This document shows, in pieces, positions 27,940-46,356 of a stretch of 64,000 bases of DNA. The stretch spans positions 1 through 64,000 of the forward strand of contig MVRU01000005.1 of the NCBI GenBank assembly GCA_002067745.1. The letters are read 5' to 3'. Origin of the DNA: Syntrophus sp. PtaU1.Bin005 (lineage in GTDB: Bacteria; Desulfobacterota; Syntrophia; Syntrophales; Syntrophaceae). The notes below the pieces were generated by a model, which saw only the letters and a program-made list of their open reading frames with translations, did no database searches and had not been told where the DNA came from. The translations under genes were made by a program, and so were the position numbers. Position 1 is the stretch's first letter; the number at the start of each line of letters is the position of its first letter.

Positions 27940-28104
27940 CCTCCCGTCCCGTTATTCATGAGCTGGAAGTTTCTTCCCTTCAACCGGAGATCCGTGTGTT
28001 CCGTTGCTCAAGAAAGGATGGTTTTCTCATAATTCTTGACATCTCTTGATGAATTTATTAGCGTCACCCTGCCATGTGGTGTTGTACCAGGGAGGAACAC
28101 AAGT

Positions 28105-28515
28105 ATGATTGGGGTTTTAATTGTAACACACGGGAATGTCGGCGGTGAGTTAATCAAGGCGGCGGAGATTATCAAAGGCCCCTTGAAATCCCTTCTTCAC
28201 GTATCTGTCGACACGTTCAACAGCGTTGAATCCCTGAAGAAAGAAATCAGCTCATCCATCAAAAAGATCGATGCGGGTCAAGGCGTGTTGATTCTCACAG
28301 ATCTTTTCGGCGGAACGCCATCCAACCTGTCTCTTTCATTTTTGAAAAAGGACAGGGTGGAAGTGGTGACGGGAGTGAATCTCCCGATGCTACTGAAGGT
28401 ATCCGACATTCGCCAGGATATGAGTCTTCGGGATTTTGCCGCCCATGTGACGGAATACGGCAGAAAGAACATCTACCTGGCCAGCGAGGTATTAGACAAG
28501 AAAATTGCCGAATAA
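28105..28515 (+). CDS. PTS system EIIA component, mannose/fructose family
   Basis: Phosphocarrier protein of 136 residues that takes phosphate from HPr. The phospho-acceptor is His 9 in LIVTHGN, and the family loop LILTDLFGGTPSNLSL follows in the middle. The start ATG at 28105 has a GGGAGGA site; a longer frame opening at 28036 lacks one. First of three PTS genes, divergent from fliK. No EI or HPr gene is in the window, so the phosphate source is elsewhere. Confidence 0.92.
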   Translation: MIGVLIVTHGNVGGELIKAAEIIKGPLKSLLHVSVDTFNSVESLKKEISSSIKKIDAGQGVLILTDLFGGTPSNLSLSFLKKDRVEVVTGVNLPMLLKVSDIRQDMSLRDFAAHVTEYGRKNIYLASEVLDKKIAE

Positions 28516-28519
28516 GACC

Positions 28520-29020
28520 ATGCAGAACGATTATGACATAGTCCTTGTGCGAGTGGATGACCGCCTTATTCATGGACAAATCCTTGAAGCATGGCTCCCC
28601 TTTTTAAAGGCCTCATGCATCATTGTGGCCGATGACGGGGTAGCCGCTGATTTTTTTCGCGAAACGGTGATGAGAATGGCGGTTCCCAATGAAACGGAAG
28701 TCCTTTTCCGATCCATAAATGACTTGTCGGGAAATTATCGCTGCAAACCCGAAAACGGCAAACGGACGCTCGTTCTTTTTTCATGCATTTCCGACGCGGT
28801 ACGTGCCTATGAATCCGGCTTCCGTTTTTCACAGCTCAATATAGGCAACGTCTATAACGAGAACGGAGAAAGGATCTGTTCCCCTTCCGTTCTCTTGGGT
28901 TCTCAGGATATGGATTTCCTGAAGGATCTTGTCAGAGACAATGTCACCATCCAAGTACAGCGCGTTCCAAGGGAGAGATCCTTCGATTTCAAAAATTTCT
29001 TAACGGCGCAGAGGCCTTAA
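28520..29020 (+). CDS. PTS system EIIB component, mannose/sorbose family
   Basis: 166 residues from ATG 28520, 4 bases after the EIIA stop. The phosphorylated His is His 18 in VRVDDRLIHGQILEAW, the family signature, followed by ADDGVAADFFRETVMRMAVP. The C-terminal part keeps LNIGNVYNENG-type spacing. It would transfer phosphate from EIIA to a sugar in the EIIC/EIID channel, but EIID is missing here. Confidence 0.9.
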   Translation: MQNDYDIVLVRVDDRLIHGQILEAWLPFLKASCIIVADDGVAADFFRETVMRMAVPNETEVLFRSINDLSGNYRCKPENGKRTLVLFSCISDAVRAYESGFRFSQLNIGNVYNENGERICSPSVLLGSQDMDFLKDLVRDNVTIQVQRVPRERSFDFKNFLTAQRP

Positions 29021-29048
29021 AGATTTCAAGGAATGGACTGGCTTCCCG

Positions 29049-29744
29049 ATGGTTCTCCAATGCCTTATGATTTCACTGCTTGGGGGAGTGATCTGCCTTG
29101 ACAGAATCGTGATTCAAAGCATGATCGCCAGGCCTGTCGTGGCGGCTCCACTTATGGGCTTTTTTTTAGGCGATCCTTACACCGGCCTGATGATCGGCGC
29201 TGTCATCGAGTTGTTCTGGATAGATCGATTGCCCATCGGCACCCTGATTCCTCCCAACGATTCTCTGGCGGCGATTCTGGTGACGGCGTCCTGCATCATT
29301 TCCAGCGGGCTTGTCGGCCATTCGTCACGGCAGATCATGGCCTTTTCCCTCCTGATCTATCTCCCCTGCGGTTATATCGGCCAGAAGATGGACGTCTTTT
29401 TCGTTTCCCTGAATGACCGCCTGGCCAGGGCAGCTCTTCGAAGCGCCGAAAAAGCCGATCTTCATGGGGTCCAGGCCCTGCACCTTCTGTCTCTTCTCAT
29501 CTATCTGTGCCTGTCCGTTTGCTTCCTTTTCTTCTTTCTGTGGCCGGGAATCGCCGCAACCGCTTTTCTCTTTCCTCTATTTTCCCCGTCCGTATTAGAA
29601 GCCCTGAATATCATCTTTTTTTTCTTTCCCCTCCTGGGGATTGCCGTCGCGTTGAACACGATCCACCTGAGGGGCATGGTTCCCGTCTTCTGCTGCATTT
29701 TTCTTCTGGCCAGCATGATCTTGGAGATCGGGCATGTTCTCTGA
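29049..29744 (+). CDS. PTS system EIIC component, mannose/sorbose family
   Basis: Membrane channel subunit, 231 residues with six to seven hydrophobic segments. Typical pattern near the N-terminus: ISLLGGVICLDRIVIQSMIARPVVAAPLMGFFLGDPYTGLMIGAVIELFW. In this family EIIC works with EIID, and no EIID gene follows; the next gene is rimI, whose ATG overlaps this stop by 11 bases. The three genes may act as a sensor, or may recruit EIID from another locus. Confidence 0.85.
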   Translation: MVLQCLMISLLGGVICLDRIVIQSMIARPVVAAPLMGFFLGDPYTGLMIGAVIELFWIDRLPIGTLIPPNDSLAAILVTASCIISSGLVGHSSRQIMAFSLLIYLPCGYIGQKMDVFFVSLNDRLARAALRSAEKADLHGVQALHLLSLLIYLCLSVCFLFFFLWPGIAATAFLFPLFSPSVLEALNIIFFFFPLLGIAVALNTIHLRGMVPVFCCIFLLASMILEIGHVL

Positions 29745-35297: not shown

Positions 35298-38200
35298 TTA
35301 AAACATACGGTCGATTTCGTTCAGCTTTTCCTCGAGGCGACGGGCGGATACGGGGAACGCCGTTTTAAGCTCCTGGGCAAAAAGCGAAACTTTGTACTCT
35401 TCAACCATCTGGGAAAAATCGTCCAGGGCCTGCCTCTTTTTGTCCGATGCATGCTCCGAAAGCCCGTCTAACGCTTCCTTCAGCCGGTGGATAAAGGGCT
35501 GCAGTTCTTCCTCCCTGCGGCGGTCCTTCTCCCGGTTCAGAAAACCACGGTCTGCACGTATTTTAAGCGCTTTGAGGTAGCGGGGTATGTGCTTCAACCG
35601 CTTTTCTTCCCAGCGGAGGAGAAAATCCCCGGGAAGCAGCTCCTCCAGTTCACAACGGAGCTGCTTCAGAAATGCCTGTCCTTCGCGGTTTCCCCGCACC
35701 GAAAGCTCCAGTTGGCGCAGATCAGCGGCCGTTTCGGAATAGGCCTTCAGCAGCGGTTCCACCGCCTTGATCAATTCCTGGCCGTACATGAGGAGTTTCT
35801 CCCGGATCTTCCGAGCATGGTCGAGAAACTCTCCTTCCTTCCTTATTTCCAGCTCGAAGAGATCTTTTTTCACTTTATCCAGGAACAGGCTTTCCACCTT
35901 CCGGGCTCCCCCGAAATCCTCAGCCCAGCTTTTCAGCGGTTTCGGCAGTTGAAGAGCCTTCCGGAGATCCTTAAGCTCCCGGGAAAAATAAATCGAGTAG
36001 AGGGCCGCTACGCCTTTCGGGTGGACCATTGCCGCCTCTTTTCGGGTTTTGTAAAGGCAGAGATCGACGCAGCCTTCCGCGGGCGTCAGCGCAGGCCAGG
36101 CAAGGCCTGCGGGCGATCCATCGTGGGAGACCTCGACGGAATCCGGCAGATCGCCGAAGTTCCAGGCGGTGAAACCGGTTTTTTCCCAGATTCGGCGGGT
36201 CCGTTCAAGGGCTTTCGAATCCTTCCCGGCATTGACGCTCTGCTGAAGCACGGCAAGATCGCGTCCGGAAGCTTTTTCATGATTCTTGCCGTCCAGTACG
36301 GCAAAGCGGACCCGCAGGTAATCGGGCACTTCCGATTTCGACCAGGCCGCGGCGGGAATGTCCAGCGAAAGCGTTGTGCGGATCAAACCGGCCAGTTCGG
36401 GAATGAGAGGGCCGGATGGTTCGGTCAGATTTCGGATGAGACTGTCCGCCGTCGGTCCAAGGGGATGCAGCTTTTTCCGGTATTCCTTCGGAAGCCCCCG
36501 AAGCAGGGCCAGTACGCGATTTTTCAGCATTCCCGGGATCATCCAGTCGGCTGAACCAGGGGGAATGCCCGGCAGAAGGGCATCGGGGATCTGGATGGTC
36601 ACCCCGTCATCCTCTCTTCCCGGATCAAAGCGGTACACACAACGGTACTTGCGGCCCTCTACATCCACCTGGTCCGGATAGAGGGACAGTTCGTCCTCGT
36701 CGGGCACCTGGGACAGGACGTCCGCAAGGCTCATCCTGAGGAACGCGTCCCCGCCCTGATCACGGATCCTGCTCTTGAGGGTTCGCATATCACAGACTCC
36801 CGGGAGCCGCGATGCATAGAAGCTCTCCAGCACCGCATCGTCTTGAAGAAGATTCCGGCGGCGAATCTTATCCTCCATCTGCATGACCTCGGCAATGAGC
36901 TGGCAGTTGGCATGAAGAAAGGGAGGGAGCGTTTTCAGCTCGCCGTCTACAAGGGCACTGCGGATGAAAATTCTGTTCGATTCCTCCGGATCGACGGCAG
37001 CGTAGGAAACCCTGCGCCGAGGGACAATCACCAGGCCGAACAGGGAAACCTGTTCGAAGGCGACCACCTCTTCGCGGCGCTTCTCCCAGTGCGGTTCGGA
37101 ATAGGTGGAGGTGCAGAGCTCTCCGGCAATCTGCTCAATCCATGAGCTGTCGATATTTGCGGCGGTGCGGGCAAATAGCCGGGATGTTTCCACCATTTCG
37201 GCGGCGACAATCCAGTCGCCTCCATGATGGAACAGACCCGAGCCCGGATAGAGCATAACCTCCCGTCCCCGGGTCGCCGCATAAAAATTTTTTTCGCGCC
37301 GGCAGGCAATGCCTGAGAGATAGCCGCTGAGGATGGAGCGATGAAGAGCGGCGTAGAGATCTTTCTGTCCGGACTCCACGTCGATTTCGTTTTCGCCCTT
37401 TTCTTCACCTCCCTCCTTGAGGATGGTACGGACCTGTTCGTAGATCTCCTTCCACTCGCGCATTCTTCTCCAGGAAAGATAGTGAGTGCGGCAAAATTTG
37501 CGCATCTTCGTGCTGCTTTTGAGACGTTCCAGATTGTTCTCATAGGCTTGCCAGATGCGCAGCAGCGTCAAAAAATCAGAGGCCGGATCGACAAAGCGGC
37601 GATGAGCCAGATCTGCGCGACCTTCATCGTCAGCGGGCCGTTCCCTTGGGTCCTGGACACAGAGCCCCGAAGCGATAATCGTTGCCTCCTTGAGGCATCC
37701 CTCTTTTTTCGCTTCTAAAAGAATTCTGGAAATCCGCGGGTCCATCGGCATGCGGGCCATGCGACGGCCCTTTTCCGTAAGTCCGACTCCGAATCCTTCA
37801 TCCTCCGTGTTGTCGCCTTTCCTTTTTTTTTCGATCGTTACGGCGCCGAGTTCCTTGAGGACATCAAAACCATCGCGGATGCTTTTGAGATTCGGGGCGT
37901 CAATGAATGGGAAGGAAGACGGGTGGCCGAGGCCCAGCTTCAGCATGCGCAGAATGACTTCCGCCAGATTGGATCTCAGGATTTCCGGCACGGTGTACAA
38001 GGGGCGCCGGAGATAATCCTCCTCCGAATAAAGGCGGATGCAGACGCCGTTCTGTACGCGCCCGCATCGCCCCTTGCGCTGATCGGCGCTGCTTCGGGAT
38101 ATCGCCTGAACGGCCAGGCTGATCGTCCTTGTTCTGGGATTGTAGCGGGAAATTCGCGCGGTACCGCTGTCGATGACATAGCGGATTCCGGGAATGGTGA

Positions 38201-39146
38201 GCGAGGTTTCTGCAATGTTGGTGGCTACGACAATTTTCCGGGCGTTTGCCGGCGAAAAAACACGCCTCTGCTCGGACCAGGAAAGGCGTGCGAACAGGGG
38301 GAGGACTACCAGGTTATCGTAGCTCCGCCCTTCCAGGAGTTCGCAGGTATCACGGATATCCTGTTCCGTGGGCATAAAGATCAGGATGTCCCCGCGATGG
38401 TACTGCCCTGTTCGCAGTTCATCGACGGCACGGACGGCGGCGTCGACGGGGGAAAGGTCCTCCGAATCTTCATCCTCGGGCTCAATGGGCCGGTAAAGGA
38501 CTTCCACGGGGTAAACCCGGCCTGTAACCTCAACGACCGGCGCTCCGCCGAAAGCAGACGAAAATTTCTCCGTATCGATTGTTGCCGAGGTAATGACGAT
38601 TTTGAGATCACGTCTTCTTTGCAGAAGGGTTTTGAGATATCCGAGCAGGAAGTCGATATTCAGATTCCGCTCGTGGGCTTCATCGACGATGATGGTATCG
38701 TAGGCTCGCAGAAGCGGATCCCTCTGGCTTTCCATGAGGAGAATTCCGTCGGTCATGAGCCGGATGAAAGGTGACGGGCCGGAACGATCTTCAAAACGAA
38801 TCTTGTAGCCTACCGCCTGCCCGACGGTCTGTCCGAGTTCCTCGGCAATCCGCTCCGCCACGGTTACCGCAGCCACCCGCCTGGGCTGCGTACAGCCAAT
38901 GATGCCGGACATGCCCCTTCCCGCCTCCAGGCACATCTTGGGAAGTTGTGTCGTCTTGCCGGACCCGGTTTCTCCCGTGATAATCACCACCGGATGGCGG
39001 ACAATGGCCTGGACGATATCGTCCTTCCGGGAACAGATCGGCAAGTCCGCCGGGTACGTCACTTCGGGGCGGTTTTTCAGCCGGGCGCTCTTCCTGTCCG
39101 AATAAATTTCTGTCCTGGTCCTTTTTCGTGTGATCGTTTTTTGCAA
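35298..39146 (-). CDS. hrpA: HrpA-type ATP-dependent RNA helicase
   Basis: DEAH-box helicase of 1282 residues, the normal size of bacterial HrpA. Motifs in order: Walker A GETGSGKTTQ (58-67), TQPRRVAAVTVAERIA, DEAH (155-158), SATID, then QRKGRCGRV in the second RecA domain, followed by the HA2/OB-like part and the long HrpA-specific C-terminus (Trp-rich, coiled). In E. coli HrpA frees stalled ribosomes. The start is TTG at 39146 with no good ribosome site and no nearby ATG, so the exact N-terminus is unsure. It converges on the MBL gene with only 3 bases between stops. Confidence 0.94.
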   Translation of the reverse strand: MQKTITRKRTRTEIYSDRKSARLKNRPEVTYPADLPICSRKDDIVQAIVRHPVVIITGETGSGKTTQLPKMCLEAGRGMSGIIGCTQPRRVAAVTVAERIAEELGQTVGQAVGYKIRFEDRSGPSPFIRLMTDGILLMESQRDPLLRAYDTIIVDEAHERNLNIDFLLGYLKTLLQRRRDLKIVITSATIDTEKFSSAFGGAPVVEVTGRVYPVEVLYRPIEPEDEDSEDLSPVDAAVRAVDELRTGQYHRGDILIFMPTEQDIRDTCELLEGRSYDNLVVLPLFARLSWSEQRRVFSPANARKIVVATNIAETSLTIPGIRYVIDSGTARISRYNPRTRTISLAVQAISRSSADQRKGRCGRVQNGVCIRLYSEEDYLRRPLYTVPEILRSNLAEVILRMLKLGLGHPSSFPFIDAPNLKSIRDGFDVLKELGAVTIEKKRKGDNTEDEGFGVGLTEKGRRMARMPMDPRISRILLEAKKEGCLKEATIIASGLCVQDPRERPADDEGRADLAHRRFVDPASDFLTLLRIWQAYENNLERLKSSTKMRKFCRTHYLSWRRMREWKEIYEQVRTILKEGGEEKGENEIDVESGQKDLYAALHRSILSGYLSGIACRREKNFYAATRGREVMLYPGSGLFHHGGDWIVAAEMVETSRLFARTAANIDSSWIEQIAGELCTSTYSEPHWEKRREEVVAFEQVSLFGLVIVPRRRVSYAAVDPEESNRIFIRSALVDGELKTLPPFLHANCQLIAEVMQMEDKIRRRNLLQDDAVLESFYASRLPGVCDMRTLKSRIRDQGGDAFLRMSLADVLSQVPDEDELSLYPDQVDVEGRKYRCVYRFDPGREDDGVTIQIPDALLPGIPPGSADWMIPGMLKNRVLALLRGLPKEYRKKLHPLGPTADSLIRNLTEPSGPLIPELAGLIRTTLSLDIPAAAWSKSEVPDYLRVRFAVLDGKNHEKASGRDLAVLQQSVNAGKDSKALERTRRIWEKTGFTAWNFGDLPDSVEVSHDGSPAGLAWPALTPAEGCVDLCLYKTRKEAAMVHPKGVAALYSIYFSRELKDLRKALQLPKPLKSWAEDFGGARKVESLFLDKVKKDLFELEIRKEGEFLDHARKIREKLLMYGQELIKAVEPLLKAYSETAADLRQLELSVRGNREGQAFLKQLRCELEELLPGDFLLRWEEKRLKHIPRYLKALKIRADRGFLNREKDRRREEELQPFIHRLKEALDGLSEHASDKKRQALDDFSQMVEEYKVSLFAQELKTAFPVSARRLEEKLNEIDRMF

Positions 39147-39246: not shown

Positions 39247-41148
39247 ATGACGAGGCATCGAGTGGCCTTATACAGAATTATCACCAGCAACAAAAATATC
39301 TTTCTGGAATACAACAGGTTCCGGAAAAAAATATTTTCCCAGCTCGCCCCGAGAGACAGCGAGTCCATTCTCTATCTTCTTCCCTGGATGATCAGTGTCA
39401 ATCACGAATCCGTCCCAGGCTACATGGATTCTATAAAGCATAATTTCCGTGTTTTCAACATTGAAACAGATCATGAAATCCGGAATAAAGAACCCATGTT
39501 TAAAAAATACTTCAATATCCAGAGTGCTGCGCCCATCCTGACCATGACGAGCAATGACCTGCTCATAGAGGGCATTTACACCATCGGGAGCGCCGGGACG
39601 ATCAGCCAGACCCCTTCTTCGGACTGCGACATCTGGATCTGCATCAACAGAGCCGATTATGACAGCGCGTCCTATGCCCAGTTTCTTAAAAAGGTTCATC
39701 GAATCCAGAACTGGATGGATGACAACCTGAAAATGCCTGTCCACTTCTTTGTGAGCGATATTGAAGATATCAGGCGATGCAGTTTTGGGGATGTGGACTG
39801 TGAAAGCTGCGGAAGCACGCAGAAGAAGGTCCTCAAGGAAGAGTTTTACCGCACCACCATTCTCATCGCCGGCAAGGTTCCCCTCTGGTGGGCTTCCTAC
39901 GATCCGCATTCCCCTTTGACCTATGATGGCGTCGCCGAGGAATTCCAGTCATCTCCCTCCGTTTACTACGATCTCATCGACATGGGAGATCTTGATTTCA
40001 TCGACAAGGAGGAATCCTTCGGTGCAGCCCTCTGGCAGTTGAACAAGTCCCTGACCCACCCGCTCAAGTCCATCATAAAAATGCTGCTGTTGAAGATGTT
40101 CCTCGAATCTCCTGAAGGCGACCTTCTCTGCCACCGGTTCCGCAGCCGGATTCTCAGCCAGGACAGAAAGCCTTATGACTTTGTCGATCCGAGCATTTTT
40201 ACGCTCATTGCCGTCCTGGATCATACACGGAACCTGGACAGGGATACGTATCACCTGATCATGCAATGCTTTTACCTGAGGTATGAGGTGAAGCTTTATT
40301 CCCGGCGGATAACCTTGAGGGAGGAAAAGACCCTTCCTCTTTTCAAGACATACGACCTGGACAGGAAAACGATCTACGATCTCAACCGCTTTACCGACTG
40401 GAGCTATTCAGCGCAGGTCCAGTTCGGAAAAACCATTTTCATGCTTCTCGTTCAGATATACAAGGACATAAGCGAGCTGGCCCGCAATGTGGCGGGGGAT
40501 GTCGCTCCCCAGGATTTGACGATTCTCGGCCGCAAGCTCTCCTCTTCCCTGAAAAAGAAACCCAACAAAATTCCCATTCTTCTCAGGCCTCTGGACACGC
40601 ATAACCTTCCATCGCTGACGGTTCGTTTCTGTGAGGGGGGCTGGCAGATCTTTCCCGGAAATGAATCCGAGACGATCATCTGCGAGAAGTCCGATCTCAC
40701 CTACTGCCTTGCCTATCTCGTCTGGAACGGCCTCTATTTCCCGGAGCTGATACGCATGCTTCCCAATCGCACCTTTGCCACGATGCCTGAAATGATCACT
40801 CTCAGCAAAAAGATCAAGAAAACCTTCGGGACCTATGATGTCAGCTCCATCGAGTTTCAGAATTTTCTTCAGCCGGAACATACGGAAAAAATGCTTCTTG
40901 TCAGCAATTTTGCCGAGGACCCGGACACTCGCTCGCTTGCCTCTCTTCGCATTCTCACTCTGAACAACTGGGGAGAACTCTACATCCATTCCTTTCCCCG
41001 CCCGGGGCGCGTTATTTCCTTCCTTGAAAATCTTTCAAAGAACCCCTATGATATAGAAAAGTTTTATTACAGTCCGCGAAACAGCCGCCATGGCGACAAG
41101 ATTCTCGAAGAAACAAAGCGCCTGGTCGCATCTTATCTTAAAGACTAG
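39247..41148 (+). CDS. cyaA: Class I adenylate cyclase
   Basis: Makes cAMP from ATP. 633 residues. The nucleotidyltransferase motif GSAGTISQ (114-121) followed by SSDCDIWIC (Asp 126 and Asp 128) matches the enterobacterial CyaA catalytic site. The rest follows the class I layout (MTSNDLLIEGIYTIGS, PLKSIIKMLLLKMFLE). E. coli CyaA has about 848 residues, so the C-terminal regulatory region is shorter or different. The ATG at 39247 has no clear ribosome site. The gene is 68 bases upstream of the glucan enzyme and probably in one transcript. No CRP gene is in the window. Confidence 0.9.
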   Translation: MTRHRVALYRIITSNKNIFLEYNRFRKKIFSQLAPRDSESILYLLPWMISVNHESVPGYMDSIKHNFRVFNIETDHEIRNKEPMFKKYFNIQSAAPILTMTSNDLLIEGIYTIGSAGTISQTPSSDCDIWICINRADYDSASYAQFLKKVHRIQNWMDDNLKMPVHFFVSDIEDIRRCSFGDVDCESCGSTQKKVLKEEFYRTTILIAGKVPLWWASYDPHSPLTYDGVAEEFQSSPSVYYDLIDMGDLDFIDKEESFGAALWQLNKSLTHPLKSIIKMLLLKMFLESPEGDLLCHRFRSRILSQDRKPYDFVDPSIFTLIAVLDHTRNLDRDTYHLIMQCFYLRYEVKLYSRRITLREEKTLPLFKTYDLDRKTIYDLNRFTDWSYSAQVQFGKTIFMLLVQIYKDISELARNVAGDVAPQDLTILGRKLSSSLKKKPNKIPILLRPLDTHNLPSLTVRFCEGGWQIFPGNESETIICEKSDLTYCLAYLVWNGLYFPELIRMLPNRTFATMPEMITLSKKIKKTFGTYDVSSIEFQNFLQPEHTEKMLLVSNFAEDPDTRSLASLRILTLNNWGELYIHSFPRPGRVISFLENLSKNPYDIEKFYYSPRNSRHGDKILEETKRLVASYLKD

Positions 41149-41216
41149 ATAAATCGTTCCATAAAACGTCAACAGAATCTTTTCAGCAGCCGTTTGATTC
41201 CATACGTAGGTGAGAT

Positions 41217-43922
41217 ATGCCGTCCGTTATATTTTATTTCCAGTTGCACCAGCCTTTCCGTCTTCATCCGGATCGGGATAAATTCCTCTGGGATGATGAA
41301 AACAAAGAGATTTTCCTTACCACTTCTGAAAGATCGTATCTCCCGGCTCTGGGAATGCTTACAGACCTGGTCCGGCGACATCCGGGCTTCCGGATAACCT
41401 TGAGCATGTCCGGAACCTTTCTGGAGCAGGCGACTCTATACGAACCCAGGGTGATCAATGCCTTGAGATCCCTCCTTGATGTCGGAAGGGGCAGTCAGCA
41501 GGTTGAATTTCTCAATGAAACGTATTTCCACTCTCTGACCTCCCTCTTCTCTGATCCGCATAAAGAGGAGTTTCGCGAGCAGGTAACGGGACACCGGGAA
41601 TGTATCCGCAAACTCTTCGGCATATTTCCCCTCTCGTTTCGAAACACGGAGCTTATCTACAACAACGCACTGGCGGATATTGTTGCCGACATGGGTTATC
41701 TTTCCATTCTCTGCGAACCGCGGTGGCATTCGGAAGATGCCTCGGAAGCAGATCCGATGCAGACCAATTCGGTGTACCGCGCAAGGGGAACGAACCTGAT
41801 TGTGATACCCCGCAATCGCGTTCTGAGCAATCAACTGGCTTACGGTTTTTCACAGCGGTACTTGACGCCGGAGCAGTATGCAGGCTCAATCGCCTCGGTC
41901 GACGGAACCGTGGTTCTGCTGGGCTACGATCTGGAGCATATCGGCGGCTACATCCGTGAAGATGAAGGCATCTTCGACTTCTGGAGAGGCATGCCCGCCG
42001 CCCTGGAAAAATATCCCGACGTCCGCATTGAAACACCAACAAACGTCGCGGCGCGCTACAAATATGAGACCTGTCCCTCCCTGGACCTGCAGAATTCGTC
42101 CTCTTCCACCTGGATGGATATCGTCAGGGACACCTTCGGGTGGATGGAAAGCCCGACGCAGTATGTGCTTTTCAAGGATCTGGAAAATATGGAAGGGTCC
42201 GCGCGCAGGGCCGGAAGCGAGTTTCTGACGCGCTGGCGCAATCTGACGACCTCGGATCAGCTGTACTATCTGAACAACAGGATCGATGCCAGGCAGTCCC
42301 TTTGCCGTTACAACAATCCTTACGATTCGTCGCCGGTCCGCGCCACTCAAATTCTCACCAGGAAAATCGATTACCTGGAAGGGTTCATCCAACGGTTTGA
42401 AATCCTGAAAAAGCCCGCAAGAACGCCCATTATGCTGATTACCCCTGAAACGGGCAGGCTGCCCCATGATATGGGGACCCTTGCCAAGTACATCTCGGGC
42501 AAGAGCGGGGGGCAGGGAGAGGTCGTCGCAGCCCTGTGTGAAGGGCTTCTGGCGAGGGGCATCGATGTCCATCTGGCCACGTTGAATCTGAAGAAGCGCT
42601 TTCAGCTGGAATCTCAAATGACCGAAAGCCAGTGGCGGGAAGTCCGCTACAAGATCGAAGCGGAAAACATTCACCTGGTCAGTTCCTCCATCTTCGCCGA
42701 CAATCTCAGCGCCTACTCCGGAGATCCCCTGCGGACCGCCGCCACATTTCAGCGCGAGATCGTCAACAACGTCATCAAAAACGTCCGTTCAATGCACGAC
42801 GGAAGGCTGATTATCCACAGCCACGACTGGATGGCCGGCGGCGTTATTACCGCCTATGCCAAATCCACCAATGTCCCGGTTCTGCACACGGTTCACAATG
42901 TCTTTACGGAAAACCTGCCTCTCAGCCTTCTGGAAGGAGTCAATCTCCAGGGCATCGGCGAGGAGATCTATTACTCCGAGGCCTATGGGCAATCCTGTGT
43001 CGATTGTCAGGCCACGGCCATCAAAAATGCCACCCTGATTAATTTTGTGGGAGAGCGGTTTCTTCGTGAAGTGGTGAACGACTTTTTCCTCGACCGCCCG
43101 CTGGTTCCACCCAGCGTTCGAAGTGAAGTCAAGGCCAAGTATTACAGCGATGCGGCCCGGGCGATCATCAATGCGCCGGCTTCCGTCATGTACCCTGAAA
43201 ACTGCCCATTTCTGGTCCGCACGTACGGGGTGGAAGATCCCATCATGGAGGCGAAAAGGGAAAACCTTGTGGAGTTCCAGAAAAGAACCGGATTGAACGT
43301 CGATCCGGATGCCATCCTCTTTTTCTGGCCCTCGCGACTGGATCCCGTCCAGAAGGGGGTTGAGCTTCTTGAAGCCATTGCCCATCGATTCATTTCAGCC
43401 TATCCCAGCGCCCAGATGGCCATCGTGGGGGATGGCATCGGGAGCGACCGCACCCATGTGGATATTCTGGGACAGATTGCCTACGCCTCCCAGGGACGGA
43501 TCGCCTATCACCACTTCGATGAAGGGCTTTCCATGCTGGGCTTTGCTGCGGCAAGCGACGTCTTCGGCGCATCCCTTTACGAACCCTGCGGTCAGATCGA
43601 CCAGGTGGGAAATCTGTTCGGAGCGACAGCCACCAACCGGGATACGGGCGGCTATCACGACAAGATTTCAGAATTGCGCCTTAAAATTGACGGAGCACCC
43701 CAGGATGTCGGCAACGGATTTCTCTTCCGCGACTACGATCCCGGCGGGTTGTGGTACGGGCTGGAAAAAAGCATGTTTTTCCACAGAAAGCCTTTGCACG
43801 TCAAAGAGGCCCAGATTCGGCGGATCATGAAGGAATCGCGGGAAAAGTACGACCTCCAGGGCATGATTGCCCAGTACATGCGGATCTATGAAAAGCTCAA
43901 TGGGGGCAAGCCACTCGTGTGA
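41217..43922 (+). CDS. GH57 alpha-glucan hydrolase fused to GT5 glycogen synthase-like domain
   Basis: 901-residue two-enzyme fusion. Residues 1-390 are a GH57 domain: HQP at 11-13, nucleophile candidate Glu 145 in FRNTELIYNN, acid/base candidate Asp 238 in LLGYDLEHIGG. Residues about 403-901 are a GT5 starch/glycogen-synthase fold: KSGGQGEVVAALCEGLLARGIDV (N-terminal glycine loop), HSHDWMAGGV, HTVHNVF, FFWPSRLDPVQKG and LYEPCGQIDQVGNLFG (substrate/ADP-sugar loop). A soluble cytoplasmic protein, with no signal peptide. It may both cut and extend alpha-glucan. An AGGTGAG site supports the start. Confidence 0.9.
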   Translation: MPSVIFYFQLHQPFRLHPDRDKFLWDDENKEIFLTTSERSYLPALGMLTDLVRRHPGFRITLSMSGTFLEQATLYEPRVINALRSLLDVGRGSQQVEFLNETYFHSLTSLFSDPHKEEFREQVTGHRECIRKLFGIFPLSFRNTELIYNNALADIVADMGYLSILCEPRWHSEDASEADPMQTNSVYRARGTNLIVIPRNRVLSNQLAYGFSQRYLTPEQYAGSIASVDGTVVLLGYDLEHIGGYIREDEGIFDFWRGMPAALEKYPDVRIETPTNVAARYKYETCPSLDLQNSSSSTWMDIVRDTFGWMESPTQYVLFKDLENMEGSARRAGSEFLTRWRNLTTSDQLYYLNNRIDARQSLCRYNNPYDSSPVRATQILTRKIDYLEGFIQRFEILKKPARTPIMLITPETGRLPHDMGTLAKYISGKSGGQGEVVAALCEGLLARGIDVHLATLNLKKRFQLESQMTESQWREVRYKIEAENIHLVSSSIFADNLSAYSGDPLRTAATFQREIVNNVIKNVRSMHDGRLIIHSHDWMAGGVITAYAKSTNVPVLHTVHNVFTENLPLSLLEGVNLQGIGEEIYYSEAYGQSCVDCQATAIKNATLINFVGERFLREVVNDFFLDRPLVPPSVRSEVKAKYYSDAARAIINAPASVMYPENCPFLVRTYGVEDPIMEAKRENLVEFQKRTGLNVDPDAILFFWPSRLDPVQKGVELLEAIAHRFISAYPSAQMAIVGDGIGSDRTHVDILGQIAYASQGRIAYHHFDEGLSMLGFAAASDVFGASLYEPCGQIDQVGNLFGATATNRDTGGYHDKISELRLKIDGAPQDVGNGFLFRDYDPGGLWYGLEKSMFFHRKPLHVKEAQIRRIMKESREKYDLQGMIAQYMRIYEKLNGGKPLV

Positions 43923-44071: not shown

Positions 44072-45604
44072 TCAGGGCGACCAGCTCATTTCCAGTTCGA
44101 TGTCACGGGGGGCTTCAATGTGAACAGACGTTTCCAGTGTCCGGCTTCCGCCCGGCGTCAACACAAGCTCACGGAGGCCGACGTTTGACTGCCCGTTGAA
44201 AAAGGCGGGCTCTCCATAGACAACCGACGTAATCCGTCGATCCCGTATTTGTGGGACAGGTTCCTCAACGACGACTCTGACCTCCTGGCTGCCTTTGTTT
44301 TGTATAAGCGTTCGCCAGTGCCAATCCAGATCCTGTTTCGCGGAAGGATTTTCCCCGGGGTCCCGTGGTTTCGACACCATCTTCACCTCTGAAAAAACAG
44401 AAGGATCGCTGCCGAAAAAGAGCGTTTTCCCCAGGCCGTAGAATTCGAAGTCCCGGATTCCCATCAGTTCGCCGTCCATTAGAAACAGAGCCGGACTTTG
44501 GGGAATCTCCATGGGTGACGGTGAGAGCACTTCCGCTCTGATGAGGGAGGATGGCTGAGAAAAAGGCCGGATGACGCGGCTGAATGTTGCAGGCCAATGC
44601 GCGCTGTCAACCCCAAGGATCTGTTTCTGTCCTTTCGGGAGGGAGTGTCGTCCCAGCGAGCGCACAGGAATCGCCATGGGTGTTCTGAGCGGCGCTGAAG
44701 GTCCGTTTCCTTCTTCCTTCCTGATGTTTTTACGCTTTCCAGCCTTTGAGGCGTCGAGTTTCCATTCCGGCGATTTTTCAGGGGTACCCGGGACCGGCAC
44801 GGCGGTCTGACTGCCGAGGGACAGTTCCACATCGCTCCAATCCTGCGTGCTGTTTTGCCATACTTCGGCATCCCAGAAAAAATCGACCTGCCCTCGACTG
44901 GAAGTCCCTTCGAGGCGGTACCGAGGCGACCATCCGCAGTTCGGCAAGACATACGTGTACTTGAAGGATAAGATCCCCGGGCCGGGATTTGGGCCGGTGA
45001 GCATCAGGGTCAATTCCCTGTTTTCATCACCCTCTCCAGCGGCCTGCTTCATTTCGTCGGAAAGTTTCTTGATGCGCTGATCCAGGTTTTCGCATTCCCC
45101 TTCCAGGGTCATCTTTTCCTGCCAGGCCCTTTTTGTGTTGCGTGAAATGGCGGTCGACAAAATGGCGGCATCCCTCAGAGTCTTGGTCTTTGCCTTGGCC
45201 TGGGACGTCCAGAAGGAGATCTCCGCATCGAGCCCCTTGATCATTGCCGAATTCCGCATTCTCTCATCCTTGAGTTTCGCAAGCTGCTTCTGCATCGCGA
45301 CGGCCTGTACACTCCCCGGCGGGTTGGCCGTGCGCCAGGAAAGACCGGTGATTCTGAGACCGGGTTCTGATTCCGGCGAAATGGTCAAAGATTCCTGCGG
45401 CACCCGTCCGGGAAGGATCAGAACGGCCGTGGCCCTGCCCTTTTCGTCCAACCGGACCGGTACTCGGGAGCGTTCCGTTACCCGGGCAAAGCTGGGGAAA
45501 AGGGTTACCTCCACAGGCGTCGCGTGGACCATGCCAAGAGGAATCAGCAGCACGGCCAGTGTCATGACTGCGGCCCATGCGGCAGTCCTTCCACAGCGGA
45601 TCAT
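44072..45604 (-). CDS. Exported DUF4139/DUF4140-type protein (mucoidy-inhibitor-A-like)
   Basis: 510-residue envelope protein. It has a Sec signal peptide (to about VHA), an N-terminal DUF4140-like domain (VEVTLFPSFARVTERSRVPV), a coiled coil (about 105-195), and a DUF4139 beta domain (TYVLPNCGWSPRYRL, FFWDAEVWQNSTQDWSDVELSLGSQ). The start ATG 45604 overlaps the upstream stop as ATGA and has GGGAG at good spacing; a second ATG four codons earlier does not. Function in this family is not established; members are linked to exopolysaccharide and mucoidy phenotypes only loosely. Confidence 0.82.
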   Translation of the reverse strand: MIRCGRTAAWAAVMTLAVLLIPLGMVHATPVEVTLFPSFARVTERSRVPVRLDEKGRATAVLILPGRVPQESLTISPESEPGLRITGLSWRTANPPGSVQAVAMQKQLAKLKDERMRNSAMIKGLDAEISFWTSQAKAKTKTLRDAAILSTAISRNTKRAWQEKMTLEGECENLDQRIKKLSDEMKQAAGEGDENRELTLMLTGPNPGPGILSFKYTYVLPNCGWSPRYRLEGTSSRGQVDFFWDAEVWQNSTQDWSDVELSLGSQTAVPVPGTPEKSPEWKLDASKAGKRKNIRKEEGNGPSAPLRTPMAIPVRSLGRHSLPKGQKQILGVDSAHWPATFSRVIRPFSQPSSLIRAEVLSPSPMEIPQSPALFLMDGELMGIRDFEFYGLGKTLFFGSDPSVFSEVKMVSKPRDPGENPSAKQDLDWHWRTLIQNKGSQEVRVVVEEPVPQIRDRRITSVVYGEPAFFNGQSNVGLRELVLTPGGSRTLETSVHIEAPRDIELEMSWSP

Positions 45605-46356
45605 GTTTTCTCCCATGGTTTGCCCAACCTTTCATTTTGACGCCTGGGCGACATAAGCTGACGGATTTCCCACCCCTTGAGGAAGCGGTAATCGCCTTCG
45701 CCAAGATTTCCCAGCTGCAGGTCAGCAATGGCCGTCCGGATCAGCCTCAAAACCGGATGGCCCAGTTTTTCGAAGGCCCTGCGAATAACGCGGTTTCGTC
45801 CTTCACTGATGTTCAGGATCAGCCAGGAGCTCTTGGGGTTGATTTCATCGATCATTGCAGCATCGGGAACAAAGGTACCGTCTTCAAGATCCAGGCCATT
45901 CTGTAGCCGGCGGAATTCAGCGCCGGTCAGTCGGCCGGATATCTTGACCCTGTAGGTTTTGGAAACACGAAAGCGGGGATGTTGAATCTGCTGAGCAAAA
46001 TGGCCGTCATTGGTCATCAGCAGAAGTCCCTCGGAATCATAATCCAGCCTCCCCACTGGGAAAAGACGGGCACCGAGCTCGGGAAGAAGTGAGATCACCG
46101 TGGGACGTTTCTGCGGATCGCTGAGCGTCGTGACGTATCCACGGGGTTTGTTCAGTGCGACATAGATCTTTGTTTCCTCCGCACAGATCAGCTTGCCGTC
46201 CACCCGGATCTCGTCGCGACCGATATCGGCCTTGAAGCCCAATTCCCGCACGGTTTCCGAATTAACGCTGACCCGCCCTTCCCGAATCATATCCTCGGCT
46301 TTCCGGCGGGAAGCGAGCCCCGAGCGGGCGATAATTTTCTGCAGCCTTTCTTCCAT
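45601..46356 (-). CDS. rluB: Pseudouridine synthase, RsuA/RluB family
   Basis: Modifies a uridine in ribosomal RNA. 251 residues. S4-like RNA-binding domain at the N-terminus (RLQKIIARSGLASRRKAEDMIREGRVSVN). The catalytic Asp is in VGRLDYDSEGLLLMTNDG, and RVKISGRLTGAEF follows. Length and motifs favour RluB (23S) over RsuA, but the choice is not certain. Start taken as ATG 46356; an in-frame TTG at 46380 overlaps trpS. The ATGA overlap with the next gene shows coupling. Confidence 0.88.
   Translation of the reverse strand: MEERLQKIIARSGLASRRKAEDMIREGRVSVNSETVRELGFKADIGRDEIRVDGKLICAEETKIYVALNKPRGYVTTLSDPQKRPTVISLLPELGARLFPVGRLDYDSEGLLLMTNDGHFAQQIQHPRFRVSKTYRVKISGRLTGAEFRRLQNGLDLEDGTFVPDAAMIDEINPKSSWLILNISEGRNRVIRRAFEKLGHPVLRLIRTAIADLQLGNLGEGDYRFLKGWEIRQLMSPRRQNERLGKPWEKT

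Follow-up and report, generated by a model that had tools for sequence, protein, structure and literature searches.

A conserved GH57-GT5 fusion protein and its adenylate cyclase neighbour in Syntrophus

The locus and its neighbourhood

The window analysed here, a stretch of 64,000 nucleotides from Syntrophus sp. PtaU1.Bin005 (contig MVRU01000005.1), contains two neighbouring genes on the plus strand. The first encodes a short form of class-I adenylate cyclase with 633 amino acids (P0002, 39247..41148), and after 68 bases follows the gene of a 901-amino-acid GH57-GT5 fusion enzyme (P0001, 41217..43922) with matches to Pfam PF03065 and PF08323 and to TIGR02095. Coordinates, strand and spacing given in an earlier sequence-only reading of this DNA proved to be exact on re-check. 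Upstream lies the divergently oriented hrpA (35298..39146, minus strand), identified by its profile match, and downstream a convergent gene encoding a DUF4139/DUF4140 protein (44072..45616, minus strand; Pfam). In Syntrophales hrpA is the commonest upstream neighbour of the fusion (29 loci), and the DUF4139 protein also adjoins the cyclase in f15 genomes which have no fusion. G000 denotes the window's own genome in the following, and statements on the whole genome rest on family searches.

The gap between cyclase and fusion (41149..41216, plus strand) was scanned for terminators and promoters. No terminator-like site was found in these 68 bases. The nearest promoter-like match, which is the sole one nearby, is located inside the cyclase gene (41024-41052), and such hits are at chance level overall. 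As the gap comprises only 68 bases, cyclase and fusion are probably co-transcribed in Syntrophus.

The window also encodes a flagellar block on the minus strand (7065-27855) with FlgI, a FHIPEP-family protein, FliN, FliM, FliL and FliK. The plus strand (28036-29744) carries a row of genes for the IIA, IIB and IIC proteins of a mannose/sorbose-type PTS, after which a GNAT acetyltransferase is encoded; no IID was seen between them. This row is possibly a regulatory or incomplete PTS.

The fusion protein, its distribution and its gene context

P0001 consists of a GH57 half (residues 1-395) and a GT5-like glucan synthase half (residues 399-901), and its structure model has a mean pLDDT of 82. Near-full-length fusions (match over 780 residues or more) are encoded by 63 of 100 sampled Syntrophales genomes. 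Several further copies from this order are split or ended by contig ends; about 70 of the 100 genomes contain the fusion. Full-length fusions with 51-55% identity also occur in Phycisphaerae/Sedimentisphaerales (Planctomycetota). In the phylum sample of 148 genomes the fusion was not found outside Syntrophales; the genomes outside the order contain unfused GT5 relatives (33-39% identity) and unfused GH57 relatives (34-38%). A strain-specific oddity or an assembly artefact is ruled out by the order-wide occurrence. The window's genome encodes a paralogue of the fusion (G000:C75) which is 74% identical. Beside this paralogue, a caspase-like (Peptidase_C14) protein with glycine-zipper-like and DUF4384 neighbours was observed (L149, 2800-5872).

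An alignment of 55 full-length fusions revealed 237 of 901 columns that are at least 98% identical. In comparison to the nearest relative, the GH57 half has a dN/dS of 0.08 and the GT half one of 0.03, which indicates purifying selection on both halves; non-synonymous change is about 2.6 times faster in the GH57 half. The single chain with GH57 and glycogen-synthase-like domains, as described in the sequence-only reading, is genuine and conserved, and both predicted catalytic sites are kept. No described GH57-GT5 fusion was found in a search of the literature, to which CAZy itself did not belong. The fusion is real and order-wide, and as a variant of an enzyme pair that is already known it is apparently undescribed.

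The GT5-like half (42411..43919, plus strand) was assigned by PF08323, TIGR02095, Foldseek and conserved residues. PF08323 matches residues 429-624 (2e-12, 47.8 bits, cut-off 22.7). The TIGR02095 glgA model matches residues 429-894 (1.1e-33) with 116.7 bits, which is below the subfamily cut-off of 328.45. The structural match in Foldseek is E. coli GlgA (2qzs, E 4e-20, TM(target) 0.79). K429-x-G-G, H536-D-W, H560 and R707 are kept in all 55 full-length fusions, and K713 as well as E789 (in E789-P-x-G) show no variation in alignments A2 and A3. With PF08323 over its cut-off and a GlgA-type GT-B fold in the model, this half is predicted to be a member of GT5. As it is far under the GlgA cut-off, its acceptor and donor may differ from those of GlgA.

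Independent of its own domains, the fusion is linked to alpha-glucan metabolism by its neighbours in some relatives. At L087 a same-strand run of TreY, TreZ and MalQ precedes the fusion, and at L089 a same-strand run of a debranching enzyme, a GT4 protein and a GT3-GT35 fusion does so; convergent to it in family f17 is a GlgB-like GH13 gene. Other than the two fusion copies, the window's genome has no PF08323 protein, and no GlgC over the cut-off was found in a search of this genome. Several phosphorylases and a GT3-GT35 fusion are encoded there, too. The latter (G000:C52, L178:4290-8546) comprises a GT3 glycogen synthase, DUF3417 and a GT35 phosphorylase in 1418 amino acids. Its counterparts in G001 and G003 are of similar length, whereas G002 has a shorter open frame (about 1033-1072 amino acids). 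Given this second synthase fusion, glycogen may be made mainly by an enzyme other than the GH57-GT5 fusion. A second type of GH57 protein (517 amino acids, G000:C154, L001:1096-2649) was also observed in the genome and is close to GH57 structures that were solved recently, for example 8zyi (E 5e-85).

The GH57 half (41217..42401, plus strand) was assigned by PF03065, Foldseek and CSR positions. PF03065 matches residues 5-284 (1.5e-51, 175.9 bits, cut-off 21.2; Pfam). HQP (residues 11-13), Glu145 and Asp238, which the sequence-only reading had pointed out, are all present. Glu145 (codon 41649..41651, plus strand) falls on the position of the GH57 nucleophile and Asp238 (codon 41928..41930, plus strand) on that of the proton donor. 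Glu145 is kept in 54 of 55 homologues, and the donor position is occupied by Asp in 51 and by Glu in 4 of the 55; these homologues come from two phyla and include both paralogues. As regards the incomplete (beta/alpha)7 barrel of GH57, the structural match in Foldseek is a GH57 4-alpha-glucanotransferase (1k1x, E 6e-12) with a TM(query) of 0.30, the pLDDT showing dips within parts of this half. A PDB search with the single sequence of the half was uninformative, and a profile search gave a weak match to a 4-alpha-glucanotransferase.

GH57 specificities are distinguished by published fingerprint positions (PMC6037648), which were used here with a mapping of our own. The window copy carries alpha-amylase residues at position 1 (Gln9), position 12 (Arg142) and positions 35-36 (Tyr350-Tyr351). 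At position 23, where alpha-amylases have Thr, His241 is found, which is invariant in alignment A3. The fingerprint is of the alpha-amylase type and does not support the branching type that had been proposed. In branching enzymes position 12 is aromatic (mostly Trp) and position 23 is Leu, and the branching-enzyme assignment is not supported by Arg142 and His241. In Syntrophus, Gly-Glu-His after the donor Asp is replaced by Gly-Gly-Tyr/His. Judged by these residues, the half appears to be alpha-amylase-type with a family-specific change, and due to His241 and the Gly-Gly-Tyr/His replacement its activity in Syntrophus is possibly altered.

Two other readings of this half have to be considered. 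As a branching enzyme it would cut chains that come from the GT half and re-attach them by alpha-1,6 links, so that one polypeptide elongates and branches. A fusion of synthase and brancher would be metabolically sensible, amylase and branching activity are combined in some GH57 branching enzymes, and a 2024 review asks if GH57 amylases are the missing brancher of glycogen-making archaea (PMC11046441). The alpha-amylase-like fingerprint with His instead of Leu at position 23, together with the separate GlgB-like GH13 gene that adjoins the fusion in some relatives, makes this reading unlikely. Still less probable is that the half is a catalytically weak module for glucan binding or scaffolding, the GT half alone being at work. 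That would fit its faster non-synonymous change, the genus-specific changes after Asp238 and the fusion of G042 (L159, G042:C9, 13276-15843), whose GH57 half has lost Q12, E101 and E145 (now Lys) and retains only 35% identity, in contrast to 68% for the GT half. The G042 copy is probably a natural GH57-dead variant. GT-only relatives also seem to be nested among the fusions in a tree with moderate support, and this nesting and the decay in G042 suggest that the GT half can persist without the GH57 half. Against a weak module speak the nearly invariant nucleophile and the acidic donor residue in all homologues, across two phyla and both paralogues.

The adenylate cyclase and the age of the adjacency

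P0002 matches PF12633 (8.5e-45, 153.6 bits) and PF01295 (2.5e-35, 122.6 bits), with cut-offs of 27 for both. It shares with the short class-I adenylate cyclases (NF006981, PF12633 plus PF01295) the N-terminal catalytic domain, part of the second domain and the nucleotidyltransferase motif GS...SDCD (residues 114-128; 39586..39630, plus strand), which is kept in 16 of 16 cyclases. It differs from them in its NF006981 score of 646 bits, below the curated cut-off of 802, and in covering only positions 1-341 of the 601 of PF01295. The dN/dS value of the cyclase in comparison to its nearest relative is 0.095.

The pair is conserved beyond this strain and so passes the refuting condition of non-conservation which the sequence-only reading had set for it. 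All four Syntrophus genomes contain it, and it is also present in G013, which belongs to another family, with a gap of 59 bases and in different surroundings. In G011 (Smithellaceae) the fusion is directly preceded by the frame-shifted remnant of a cyclase N-terminus (L158, G011:C333, 280-690), on a low-coverage contig. When cyclase remnants were sought upstream of other fusions, L158 was the only convincing case; at L167 one weak hit (E 0.18) was in the wrong orientation, and downstream controls gave none. Elsewhere in Syntrophales the fusion mostly adjoins the divergent hrpA directly, without a cyclase. Among the f15 genomes, G098 lacks the fusion and has the order hrpA-cyclase-DUF4139, and in G091 cyclase-DUF4139 is found at a contig end.

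An insertion of the cyclase between hrpA and the fusion in Syntrophus only was considered and is weakened by the G011 remnant and the gene order in f15. The simplest history would be either an old block of hrpA, cyclase, fusion and DUF4139 gene with separate losses or an insertion of the fusion after the split of f15; the remnant and the f15 order favour the old block. The trees of the cyclase and of the fusion do not decide the history, and in neither of them is G013 placed with Syntrophus, so that the pair in G013 may stem either from shared descent or from independent pairing. The adjacency as such is genuine and old, the cyclase being a neighbour that was often lost.

In the sequence-only reading the two genes were named as the best candidate for a storage-control system. 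In such a system cyclase and fusion would be co-expressed, and the cAMP made by the cyclase would tune alpha-glucan storage. The short gap without a terminator-like site is suggestive only, and the adjacency in the Syntrophus genomes, in G013 and as a remnant in G011 also speaks for it. Moreover, no adenylate cyclase other than P0002 was found in the window's genome (class III is absent, no PF00211), and this genome encodes three cNMP-binding proteins, two of which are CRP-type regulators. The presence of the cyclase and the two regulators makes cAMP signalling plausible in general. However, an intact cyclase is encoded by only about 20 of the 100 Syntrophales genomes in comparison to about 70 with the fusion. 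According to the tables of the 100-genome search, the fusion occurs in 16 of 20 genomes with and in 54 of 80 without the cyclase, which is no significant co-occurrence (Fisher p=0.41). In the 16 genomes with both genes they are adjacent in five, four of which are from one genus, on different contigs in ten, and about 5.7 kb apart in G042. The second fusion copy (G000:C75) has no cyclase beside it, and an f15 genome keeps the cyclase in the same place without any fusion. No CRP-like site was found near the pair, sites across the window being below chance, and a Pfam search of the fusion revealed no cNMP-binding domain. Only position links cAMP signalling to the fusion; the cyclase is probably not its dedicated switch, and the proposed storage control is very doubtful. 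Any cAMP effect would more likely be exerted via the CRP-type regulators of the genome.

Proposed function and comparison with known systems

The most plausible reading, which we hold to be rather probable, is that the fusion is a bifunctional alpha-glucan-building enzyme, a one-polypeptide form of the amyA-glgA pair (saci_1200-saci_1201) of Sulfolobus acidocaldarius. We take saci_1200 to be a member of family GH57. The two Sulfolobus genes form a single transcript, and glycogen is lost when either of them is deleted (PMC8158581). AmyA contributes glycogen-hydrolysing activity, yet it is needed for glycogen, and trimming or rearranging of chains during synthesis was proposed as its role (PMC8158581).

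In the Syntrophus protein the GT5-like half would lengthen alpha-1,4 chains at their non-reducing ends with glucose taken from a nucleotide sugar. This donor is more likely to be UDP-glucose, since no GlgC over the cut-off was found in the genome. The alpha-amylase-type GH57 half would cleave alpha-1,4 chains. It would thereby provide short primers or cut back chains that have become too long, and it may also transfer chains. The fusion would couple both steps in one polypeptide, although the decayed GH57 site of the G042 copy and the GT-only relatives nested among the fusions speak against a strict coupling. A more far-reaching version, in which one polypeptide elongates, cuts and re-branches alpha-glucan, GH57 'alpha-amylases' tied to GT5 are dedicated glycogen-builders, and expression in Syntrophus is coupled to the sole cyclase found, seems improbable to us.

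With a natural mesophilic fusion of this amylase type and a GT5 synthase, two questions become testable in a single protein by changing its active sites one by one: why the Sulfolobus amylase serves glycogen synthesis, and whether GH57 amylases act as branchers in archaea, as asked in the 2024 review (PMC11046441). The fusion also hints at an apparently undescribed route to storage glucan in syntrophic bacteria and Phycisphaerae.

With GH57 alpha-amylases the fusion has in common the Gln/Glu of CSR-1, Arg142, the nucleophile Glu145, the donor Asp238 and the Tyr-Tyr in CSR-5; it differs in His241, where theirs is Thr, and in being joined to a synthase. It shares the GT-B fold and conserved donor and acceptor residues with the GT5 enzyme GlgA (E. 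coli 2qzs), but it scores below the subfamily cut-off, has an additional N-terminal GH57 half and is only about 19% identical. The GT3-GT35 fusion (G000:C52; L089, L152) likewise combines, in the same organisms, a synthase with an enzyme that degrades alpha-glucan. It is, however, built from other enzyme families and encoded outside the window, and at L089 it lies directly upstream of the GH57-GT5 fusion. The feature common to the fusion and Sulfolobus amyA-glgA is that an alpha-amylase and a glycogen synthase are made together. In Sulfolobus these are two separate archaeal proteins with glgC nearby, whereas in Syntrophus they are united in one bacterial chain of 901 amino acids in a genome with no GlgC over the cut-off.
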